Positions 24,130 through 26,898 of a DNA stretch of 50,454 nucleotides are shown piece after piece. Position 1 is the first letter of the stretch. Every line of letters starts with the position of its first letter. The DNA is from Bacteriovoracaceae bacterium. GTDB taxonomy: Bacteria; Bdellovibrionota; Bacteriovoracia; Bacteriovoracales; Bacteriovoracaceae. A program made the translations under genes and the position numbers. The stretch lies in assembly GCA_029865945.1 (NCBI GenBank), contig JARXAH010000072.1:1-50454 (forward strand), written 5' to 3'. The notes beneath the pieces were generated by a model. It made no database searches. It was not told the origin of the DNA and saw only the letters and a program-made list of their open reading frames with translations.

Positions 24130-25539
24130 ATGAGTGAAGTTTTTTTACATTCCTTATCCTCTGTTCCTTTAGAATCCATCATTAAAAAAGAATATCGCGA
24201 TTATCAAATTTATACCTTGATGGACCGGGCGATTCCTTATTTGCAAGATGGGCTCAAGCCTTCCCAGCGCCGCATCCTCTTTACCCTCTGGAAAAATCAA
24301 AATAAGGGCCTCATCAAAGTTTCCAGCTTAACTGGCCTCGTGCTCACCCTGCATCCCCACGGCCCTGCATCCGTTGAATCTTCGGTCGTTAACTTGGCCC
24401 AAGATTTCACGTTTTCTAATAATTATCCCTTGATTGATAAAAAAGGATATTTTGGCGAGCGTATGGAAACCCAAGCGGCGGCCGCTCGTTATATTGAATG
24501 TAAATTGGGAAAAGTCGCAGAGCTACTTCTCTTTGATGATATGAATCAAGTGGAAATGGTTCCCAACTATGATGAAAAAGTGATGGAGCCCTTATCGCTT
24601 TATCCCAAACTTCCTCTGATGCTACTTAACGGTGCAGAAGGAATTGGGACAGGATTTTCATCTGTCATCCCGCAGCACAATCACATGGATATTATAAACG
24701 CCATGATGATGTACCTAGAGAAAGGGAAGCCAAAAAAACTTCGCTGCTGGGTTCGCAATTATAATGAAAAAATTGATATTGAAAAAGATGGAAAGATTAT
24801 TTTCCCTATGAGCTTTAAGCAATACGGAGAGTCCATTCACATAACGGAGCTTCCCAAAGGCTTTGATGCCCAGCGGATTTATAAACATTTAAATAAATTT
24901 ATCGAAAAAGATTTTTTAAAAGATTATATCGACAGCTCTGTGGATAACGAAATTGATATTCAGCTCATTTTTAAAAGAGGCCAGCAACCCACCCTCGAAG
25001 AAGTAGTGGCCGAAATGTATACCAGTACTTCCATTGTTCCCAATTACACGTTGATTTCTGAGCGCGGTGTGAAAATTTTTGATAACGCGGAAGATATTAT
25101 TGAAGTGTTTACTGCTCAGCGAATGCAAGTGGTTAAGCGTCGCTATGAACTCCTCATCAAAGATCATGAGGCCAACATCCAAAAAAATAATGAGATCATT
25201 CGTTTCATTAAAGAAAAGCATTACGCGGAAGCAGAGAAGAAAGCTAACCGTAAAGATTTCGTAGACTATTTATCCATTAAAAAATTTGTTTATGCAGAGT
25301 ACTTGGCCGATATGGCCATCTACCGCATGACCAAAGATGAAGTCGGAAAGCGGCAGCTGCTCATTGATGAAGATACCAATAAACTCAAAGGATTTAGAAA
25401 AGTATTGTCTAATCCCGATGGCGTAAAAGAAAAACTCATGGATGAACTCAACGACGTGGGCCTCAAGCTCAGTAAAATCATGGAAGATAAACAAAAAGAG
25501 AAAAAAGAAGTCTACGCTAAACTTAAGAAAAAAAGATAA
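24130..25539 (+). CDS. Type IIA DNA topoisomerase, breakage-reunion subunit (GyrA/ParC-like, short)
   Basis: This is the DNA-cleaving partner of the subunit encoded at 22127. The winged-helix and tower regions include 'MDRAIPYLQDGLKPSQRRIL' (~32-51), 'HPHGPASVESSVVNLAQ', 'KKGYFGERMETQ' and the active-site tyrosine Tyr121 with its preceding Arg in 'AAARYIECKL'. The family motif 'GIGTGFSSVIPQHN' and a long coiled coil with 'QRMQVVKRRYELL' follow. At 469 residues it stops after the coiled coil and lacks the C-terminal beta-pinwheel of GyrA (about 870 residues) and ParC (about 750). It is similar in size to phage T4 gp52 (442). With this architecture it probably relaxes or decatenates DNA rather than supercoiling it. 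Confidence 0.9.
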   Translation: MSEVFLHSLSSVPLESIIKKEYRDYQIYTLMDRAIPYLQDGLKPSQRRILFTLWKNQNKGLIKVSSLTGLVLTLHPHGPASVESSVVNLAQDFTFSNNYPLIDKKGYFGERMETQAAAARYIECKLGKVAELLLFDDMNQVEMVPNYDEKVMEPLSLYPKLPLMLLNGAEGIGTGFSSVIPQHNHMDIINAMMMYLEKGKPKKLRCWVRNYNEKIDIEKDGKIIFPMSFKQYGESIHITELPKGFDAQRIYKHLNKFIEKDFLKDYIDSSVDNEIDIQLIFKRGQQPTLEEVVAEMYTSTSIVPNYTLISERGVKIFDNAEDIIEVFTAQRMQVVKRRYELLIKDHEANIQKNNEIIRFIKEKHYAEAEKKANRKDFVDYLSIKKFVYAEYLADMAIYRMTKDEVGKRQLLIDEDTNKLKGFRKVLSNPDGVKEKLMDELNDVGLKLSKIMEDKQKEKKEVYAKLKKKR

Positions 25540-25548
25540 CGGGATTTG

Positions 25549-25719
25549 GTACTGATGCAGGTTTGGTTTTCAAGAAGGGTTCCGATTCAACAATTTGAAT
25601 CGGAAGTGAGGGCGAAACGCCGAGACGTGCTTAGGCACGTCGCAGGCGATGTTGAGACTGTGCCAAAGCACAGTCGAACCGAAGTTCGACGCACTGGAAA
25701 ATCAAAACCGCATCAGTAC
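25549..25719. repeat. Multi-hairpin intergenic element 1
   Basis: An outer stem of about 22 base pairs joins 25549-25571 with 25697-25719: GTACTGATGC/GCATCAGTAC is perfect, and GGTTTGGTTTTC pairs with GAAAATCAAAACC with one bulge and one G-U. Inside are five hairpins in a row: an 11-bp perfect stem with loop CAAT (25580-25605); GGCG/CGCC with loop AAA (25611-25621); a 7-bp stem with loop TTAG (25624-25641); an 8-bp stem with loop CAAA (25656-25675); and CGAAC/GTTCG with loop CGAA (25675-25688). It begins ten bases after the topoisomerase stop. It may be a structured RNA, a 3' UTR element or a mobile palindromic element. The reading frame over it is an artefact of the palindromes. Confidence 0.7.
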
Positions 25720-25726
25720 AAAAAGA

Positions 25727-25767
25727 GGAAAACCAAATACGGAGGGGGGGGCCGCATTTGGTTTTCC
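25727..25767 (+). terminator. Strong hairpin after the topoisomerase operon
   Basis: GGAAAACCAAAT (25727-25738) pairs perfectly with ATTTGGTTTTCC (25756-25767), extended by CGG/CCG (25740-25742/25752-25754) after an A-C mismatch. The loop is A followed by eight G. The arm repeats the AAAACCAAA motif of the element next to it. It may end transcription of the topoisomerase genes, though no T-run follows. The remaining 156 bases to 25923 hold nothing I can identify. Confidence 0.5.
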
Positions 25768-25923
25768 TATGTTTGCCTACTCCTTAAGGCGTTCATCCTT
25801 GAATTACCATCCAGTGGTTGTCTACTCCGTGACAAAATTGACTTCATGCCAAGATAAAAACTTCCCGTCTTTATTTAGTCATCCAATGACTTTATTATTT
25901 TTTAAAAAACTTTTGAGAGTTTT

Positions 25924-26898
25924 TTAATTTTTTGCTACATCAAGTAAAATATTTTTTTCAAATGTTTTCCCTTTAAGTTTTCTCATGTCCACTTTATGCT
26001 CTGAAATTTTGTGGCCGTTGATATCGTGAATGCAAGATCCATCTGGCATTAACGTATGGGCCACGACCACATCGTCTCCTGGCTCTAAACCTGCGGCTTG
26101 TATCGCCTCTGGCGAAAGTCCTGCTAAAATATTTGAACTCGCATTACTCTTAATTTCACTGTAATAATTTTCCAATTCTGCAGACATGGACACGCCATAG
26201 TTTCCTTTCACATGGGCCTCGCTACATTTGTCGTACGCCTTACCACTAGAAGAATAAGGCGCCAAGGTCGTTGTGGCAGTCGCATAGCTCACATAAGGTT
26301 CCATTAATGAAGCATCACAGCTTGTAATATGGATCAGTCCAATCACGTGTCCCAATTCATGGGCCAGCACATAATAAAGTGAGTACTCCCCTGAATCATA
26401 AGTAGAATTATCCGTTTGGTTATAAAAATTGTAAGTATAATCATTTACCCCAATGTCACTTGCACTTAAGGTGACAGAGTTTCCTCCTTGATACGTTCCA
26501 TAGTTCACAGTCACGGCCAGTGCCCCCGATGATAGCGCTGAAGGCCAGGAAGTCGTATAGCGATAAATACCCACCGAGGAGTCTTTCCAACTTGAATAGC
26601 TACTTGGGTGACTTAAGGCACCAGAGGAAATGGAGAAGAAGGAATAGTTATTATCACTCATGGTCGCCCAATCAGACCCAATCGATTGAATTTCTGTAAG
26701 ATCGAGGGCTGAAAAATCACTATCTGCGATGGTTGTTAAAGGTAAACTAGATGCGGCGTACTTATACAGTGTAAATCCACTCGAAGCTGCCGAAGTCGAT
26801 GAACTAGATTTCGTTCCAATACATCCTTGCAGAAGGAGTGAACTTGTCATCGTCGCTGTTACAATTAGTGTCTCTACAGATCTAGGGATTATCTTCAC
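25924..26898 (-). CDS. Metzincin-type zinc metalloprotease lipoprotein
   Basis: The 324-residue protein starts with GTG (26898), preceded by AAGGTGG, and has a lipoprotein signal peptide ending 'LLLQGC' (Cys26). A Ser/Thr-rich linker follows. The catalytic motif 'HELGHVIGLIH' (His180, Glu181, His184, His190) matches HExxHxxGxxH of metzincins such as matrixins (M10-like), and 'SLMEP' (Met199) nine residues later fits the Met-turn. A cysteine (Cys194) sits between them. The C-terminal ~80 residues contain 'GLSPEAIQAAGLEPGDDV' and are of unknown role. It is expected at the cell surface or in the periplasm, digesting protein outside the cytoplasm. Confidence 0.85.
   Translation of the reverse strand: MKIIPRSVETLIVTATMTSSLLLQGCIGTKSSSSTSAASSGFTLYKYAASSLPLTTIADSDFSALDLTEIQSIGSDWATMSDNNYSFFSISSGALSHPSSYSSWKDSSVGIYRYTTSWPSALSSGALAVTVNYGTYQGGNSVTLSASDIGVNDYTYNFYNQTDNSTYDSGEYSLYYVLAHELGHVIGLIHITSCDASLMEPYVSYATATTTLAPYSSSGKAYDKCSEAHVKGNYGVSMSAELENYYSEIKSNASSNILAGLSPEAIQAAGLEPGDDVVVAHTLMPDGSCIHDINGHKISEHKVDMRKLKGKTFEKNILLDVAKN

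Follow-up and report, generated by a model that had tools for sequence, protein, structure and literature searches.

A palindrome at the end of a topoisomerase operon

The stretch of DNA we analysed, called the window throughout, comprises positions 1 to 50,454 of contig JARXAH010000072.1 from a Bacteriovoracaceae bacterium (assembly GCA_029865945.1). Within it the gene for an A-type subunit of topoisomerase IV or gyrase ends and, 9 nt after its stop codon, an imperfect palindrome begins. Read directly, this is a repeat of 171 nt in which 22-nt outer arms surround five inner hairpins. From the other side, the gene for a matrixin-like peptidase converges on it. The features are as follows.

24130–25539, plus strand: topoisomerase IV/gyrase A-type subunit gene, upstream of the repeat (PF00521, E 7e-86)
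25549–25719, plus strand: whole repeat, long 171-nt form, with copies at 57 places in its own genome
25550–25571, plus strand: left outer arm TACTGATGCAGGTTTGGTTTTC, opening with TA, presumably that of the target site
25580–25605, plus strand: hairpin module TTCCGATTCAA-CAAT-TTGAATCGGAA, not in the 125-nt short form (direct reading, copies compared)
25618–25648, plus strand: conserved core CGCC-GA-[GACGTGC-TTAG-GCACGTC]-GCA-GGCG, common to sub-families and phyla
25656–25675, plus strand: hairpin module GACTGTGC-CAAA-GCACAGTC, not in the 125-nt short form
25674–25689, plus strand: hairpin TCGAAC-CGAA-GTTCGA (direct reading, folding)
25697–25718, minus strand: right outer arm, GAAAATCAAAACCGCATCAGTA on plus and TACTGATGCGGTTTTGATTTTC on minus, an exact arm match
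25726–25768, no strand assigned: sixth hairpin with an A+G8 loop, separate from the repeat, single-copy
25924–26898, minus strand: matrixin-like peptidase gene, convergent (PF00413, E 6e-7)

TA stands at both termini of the repeat (25550–25551 and 25717–25718), and the loops of the five inner hairpins are CAAT, AAA, TTAG, CAAA and CGAA. The plus strand is the purine-rich one here, and the fold common to the family is built on it: CGCC at 25618–25621 pairs with GGCG at 25645–25648, enclosing the hairpin at 25624–25641 and replacing a purely local GGCG-AAA-CGCC hairpin. An earlier note on this DNA had described an outer stem of about 22 bp around five serial hairpins, and both our reading and folding agree with it. 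The plus strand folds at a minimum free energy of −104 kcal/mol, against −63.3 (sd 4.6) for shuffles (z = −8.9), and the minus strand at −102 kcal/mol (z = −13). The worry that shuffled sequence might fold just as well can be set aside, as none of 200 shuffles did.

The note had also taken some 220 bases as one element. The palindrome at 25549–25719 is real; the sixth hairpin is a separate, single-copy structure, for which a DNA search of the genome found no second match (nothing beyond query position 184). On the minus strand TCTTTTTG follows this hairpin, which makes it a possible terminator of the minus-strand gene.

A dispersed family

The window copy is far from alone, and with its further copies and its better-than-shuffled fold both refuting checks set by the note came out in the note's favour. 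A DNA search located matches at 57 places in its genome, the arm pattern matched 63 times against four for a reversed control, and exact core matches numbered 28 against none. Nine near-identical short copies of 125 nt do without the hairpins at 25580–25605 and 25656–25675, and young copies end in TATAC..GTATA. Several sub-families keep the core, GAGACGTGC..GCACGTCGCA, between other outer arms, mostly of the TATAC..GTATA type. One copy (C26 / L016, about 1850–1962) is a chimera, with the left arm of the TATACCAAGCCTAGAAAATAATCTTC sub-family and the right arm of the window's own. Small inserted hairpins, at window positions 25580–25605 and in L027, L041, L066 and L014, have different stems and similar loops (AACGATTT or its complement). 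They recur at several positions from copy to copy and could represent a nested repeat of a second type. Searching further afield, we found no match to any RNA family described in Rfam, only chance matches of the element's sequence strings in literature texts, and no viral contig carrying it.

Relatives carry the element too, in numbers from zero to about 100 copies. A covariance model, R1, built from 23 sequences and seeded on the GTGC apex, matches the window copy at 25586–25692 on the plus strand (36.3 bits, E 1.1e-7). Of 241 genomes in the window's phylum, apparently Bdellovibrionota, 78 have significant matches, as do 84 of 198 from a second, deltaproteobacterial phylum. The name of the window's phylum is drawn from two relatives that share its family, G022 (Bdellovibrio sp. 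JACPIU) and G025 (Bacteriovoracales JAPONP). The core pattern extends to Gemmatimonadetes, Acidobacteria, deltaproteobacteria, Bdellovibrionales and Clostridia, each time with arms of its own that compensate one another. Single matches in Opitutaceae and Dormibacteraeota fall within coding sequence and look like chance.

In Bdellovibrio the element has a preferred position. In 24 of 33 copies, some of them orthologous between strains, no more than 9 nt separate the 3' end of the purine strand from the stop codon of an oppositely running gene; in no copy is the 5' end that near the stop of a sense gene. Copies in GY13CH (L107, L116, L130, L136, L138, L142) start at a stop codon, mostly TAG, or 1–2 nt from it, each with its own GC-rich compensated arms beginning AG. 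Copies in the window genome do not show this orientation rule, and the window copy, 9 nt from its gene, has the opposite sense to that of Bdellovibrio and ERIC copies.

Signs of movement

Traces of movement come from G025, where the family forms a 169-bp composite with GTAAC..GTTAC ends. Its 8-bp target duplications are perfect in 10 of 16 cases, and on average 7.1 of the eight positions are identical, against 2.8 for mismatched flanks. Empty orthologous sites were shown in Bdellovibrio and in relatives of GY13CH. At one Bdellovibrio locus (L231) three genomes have the element and seven have an empty site; at another (L234) three relatives carry a plain intrinsic terminator at the same place. 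In GY13CH the spacing of one gene pair is 154 nt where the element is present; in relatives that lack it, the spacing is 56 or 9 nt. The ortholog of L231 in G128 (L326) has a 63-bp two-hairpin insert inside the element, which two sister strains do not have.

In the window genome the sole candidate target duplication is the TA at the ends, which, being palindromic, cannot be proved a duplication from single copies; these ends fit an enzyme that duplicates TA. The family is multi-copy, has terminal inverted repeats and contains no transposase gene, as miniature inverted-repeat elements (MITEs) do. Taken with the kinship to ERIC described below, the copies, empty sites and duplications leave us close to certain that this is a mobile palindrome, one of the roles that the earlier note had offered for it.

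A fold kept on one strand

Copies differ in sequence and keep their pairing. In A5, an alignment of 68 distinct sequences that was fitted to the model, 93.7% of cells pair and 28 of 31 pairs have changed on both sides; for covariation it scores 0.669, compared with 0.191 after shuffling and 0.08–0.13 after sliding. Alignment A1, made independently by sequence alone, scores 0.729 against 0.183 shuffled. The apical stem covaries in A5 and seems invariant in A1, because the seeds of A1 were selected on that stem. Arm mismatches in Bdellovibrio, read on the purine strand, are G.U in 70 cases and A.C in one, or 18 against one once two conserved wobble columns are removed, and a C.C mismatch is kept in 34 of 35 rows. 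In the window genome the strand bias is weak, at 31 G.U to 18 A.C. The purine strand, plus here, is shown to keep a defined fold while the outer arms change in a compensated fashion. Template switching during palindrome repair might preserve complementary arms even in the absence of selection, yet one strand would not be favoured by it.

Such evidence would fit a conserved structured RNA, a regulator or 3'-end element under host selection for which dispersal is secondary. Covariation in both alignments, the wobble bias, the conserved C.C mismatch and the fixed stop-codon orientation in Bdellovibrio all speak for it. We nevertheless consider it unlikely, since copy number swings widely among relatives, sister species have empty sites, near-identical recent copies with target duplications point to self-spread, and the strand bias fades in the window genome. 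From the note's suggestion of a structured RNA, only the conserved fold of one strand survives.

Whose arms are they?

A different reading of the same material treats the core as a guest, inserted in the loops of palindromes already present, terminators or MITEs, so that the arms belong to the host site. One genome can combine a single core with different arms, every GY13CH copy has unique compensated arms, the chimeric copy takes its arms from two sub-families, and relatives have a plain terminator where Bdellovibrio carries the element. But in GY13CH relatives the empty site contains no palindrome and leaves as little as 9 nt of room, which is why we demoted core insertion into terminators to a rival, and an improbable one. 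Bdellovibrio arms and those of the deltaproteobacterial phylum have AAAAAGG..CCTTTTT and the C.C mismatch in common, and so belong to the element.

Which enzyme moves it?

To our mind a mobile palindrome it remains, and the next question is what carries it. Resident DDE transposases would read the ends of the element and move it in trans: in the window genome a TA-type, IS630-like enzyme, and in APA_bin_12 an IS66-like enzyme that makes 8-bp duplications. From the ends and duplications we lean towards DDE mobilisation of this kind, with some reserve. The one IS630-type (DDE_3) element found in the window genome (C103, L066 about 940–2060) was considered as parent and rejected: its ends (TATAGATCGTAGCG.., TATAGATCGTAGCGAAAATAATTTCAG), in a TATA context, differ from those of the repeat. 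The search among DDE_3 elements thus yielded no parent insertion sequence that shares the repeat's ends. Directly behind this element, at about 2085–2245, lies a copy of a further ERIC-like sub-family.

Among the closest known systems are RUP and Correia/NEMIS, MITEs mobilised by IS630-type enzymes. They too are short and protein-less, with TA ends and terminal inverted repeats, and their transcripts are expected to form strong stem-loops (PMC2229807). Unlike them, the present element has no parent insertion sequence of the same ends in the search of its own genome's DDE_3 elements, and its core spans genomes with differing end types, TA here and 8-bp duplications in G025.

Alternatively, a RAYT (Y1) transposase could move the repeat as single-stranded DNA, which would make it a REP/REPIN-type element. 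REP/REPIN sequences, with their GTAG or CGTC tags, are likewise palindromic, extragenic and often downstream of genes, some REP dimers are on record within larger palindromes (PMC3733652), and RAYT genes occur in the window genome and many relatives. Yet the element is much longer and shows no dependence on RAYT: Y1 genes are present in 64 of the 78 genomes that carry the element and in 116 of the 163 that do not (p = 0.08), and none was detected in G025, G047, G123, G131, G143 or G160, each with at least 10 copies. RAYT-type genes of Bdellovibrio are flanked by a repeat of their own, GGTATCGGTCA, and the 8-bp duplications of G025 point to a DDE enzyme. We rejected the link after testing 241 genomes and the RAYT loci, where two apparent RAYT-element neighbours proved to be one orthologous locus. 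This reading is very improbable, and the note's idea of processing as single-stranded DNA finds no support. Two observations on RAYT genes may be recorded. Several copies of GGTATCGGTCA..TGACCGATACC surround RAYT-type genes at L274, L285 and L280 in Bdellovibrio, apparently a RAYT-associated family. In the window genome a RAYT/TIRYT-type Y1 transposase gene (L070 737–1366, C15) sits between inverted repeats of its own, GTGCCAGCACCCCGCTGTTATGAGAC and its complement, which are unrelated to the element; an element copy lies about 0.8 kb from it.

That the repeat is an elaborate terminator of the topoisomerase operon and nothing more is hardly credible: it has strong hairpins and follows the operon by 9 nt, but the plus strand continues just past it as AAAAAG, not a T-run, a terminator scan gave a single weak site, on the minus strand and at chance level, and the same unit stands at dozens of unrelated loci.

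Probable kinship with ERIC

ERIC (enterobacterial repetitive intergenic consensus, also IRU or RU-1, about 127 bp) has been known since about 1990 and is a standard typing target; to our knowledge it has no known mobilising enzyme. According to a 2024 review (PMC10969869) it occurs in Enterobacteriaceae and Vibrionaceae. It is reported to have TA termini and to duplicate its target (PMC2229807). In Yersinia it is reported to be transcribed and to change mRNA stability, and for ERIC an effect on that stability through RNase E, dependent on orientation, has been reported (PMC2229807, PMC10969869).

We compared the family with ERIC copies from E. coli, Klebsiella, Pantoea, Rahnella and Salmonella. 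R1 gave these just 10 bits, and a broader model was required: R2, whose 69 source copies include no ERIC. In a first test containing nine ERIC loci, ERIC supplied the top eight matches of R2, all of them full length and agreeing in strand and register (E 7e-7 to 0.12), at 35.7, 27.7, 25.3, 23.1, 20.9, 20.3, 17.5 and 14.1 bits against 11.6 for the best non-ERIC sequence; one locus (L388) had no ERIC match. In a second set all nine ERIC loci were matched, and nothing further at E ≤ 0.2. The reverse comparison used R3, a covariance model of ERIC only. With filters off it matched a sister genome (E 3e-11, 9e-9 and 2.5e-8), a 125-nt copy of the window genome (1.3e-4) and a Clostridia copy (0.007), and gave no match to the long-form window copy. 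With default filters, over 202 kb, it missed the 125-nt copies and reported only a further sub-family of the window genome, TATACTGGTTCGGTTTTGAATTTCC..GGACCGGTATA (L032 2456–2568 on C6, E 2e-5; also C36:15920 and C55:58897). A sequence-only HMM search found no link to ERIC. E-values of the covariance models are rough, coming from a shortened calibration, so the argument is carried by rank, strand and register; and since R3 misses the window copy itself, its membership rests on its short-form sisters.

The resemblance goes beyond scores. Like ERIC, the element is intergenic, ends in TATAC..GTATA and is, in its short form, an imperfect palindrome of about 125–130 bp, of which the window copy is a 171-nt variant. 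Both have the same internal-loop plan, with unpaired bases AGGCG.ACAAG on one side and CGCAG..CAACG on the other. ERIC also docks beside stop codons: at the loci we read, it lies behind ybhI, cusC, potI, a Rahnella gene and zapB, about 0–8 nt from the stop and oriented as the Bdellovibrio copies are. They differ in the apical stem, GCTTAC/GTAAGT in ERIC and GRCGTGC/GCACGTC here, and in the arms, and the window copy has two additional hairpin modules. We judge it highly probable that the element belongs with the ERIC repeats in one cross-phylum family.

Palindromic intergenic families have been described before in deltaproteobacteria, as the 'multicopy nucleotide sequences' of Geobacter. The central palindrome of one, GRCGTAGCGCTGCTACGCC, recalls the apical hairpin here; the text of that account treats these families genome by genome and draws no link to ERIC (PMC2700814).

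What the repeat may be, and why it matters

Our preferred reading, held with good confidence, is that 25549–25719 is a long-form copy of a MITE-class mobile palindrome that is dispersed, encodes no protein, does not move autonomously and shares its ancestry with ERIC. Such an element would be tolerated between genes and at gene ends. Where co-transcribed, it would form a long hairpin in the 3' untranslated region and could alter mRNA stability or termination, as is reported for ERIC in Yersinia. The window copy might truly affect the topoisomerase mRNA, though we are doubtful that it does.

A wider picture can be offered tentatively. An ancient mobile element would span the phyla, with ERIC as its branch in the enterobacteria. 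A common factor would recognise its folded purine strand, and its ends would be swapped in such a way that resident transposases unrelated to one another, of the TA type or the 8-bp-duplication type, carry it. In Bdellovibrio and the enterobacteria, stop codons would be either its target or the place where it is retained, always in one orientation.

An ERIC superfamily that includes Bdellovibrio and deltaproteobacteria would offer the hunt for the mobilising enzyme new, recently active relatives, with target duplications that can be read. The 69-sequence covariance model detects members that plain sequence search misses. And with a fold kept on one strand and a habit of docking at stop codons, the benefit that such repeats may bring to their hosts becomes directly testable.
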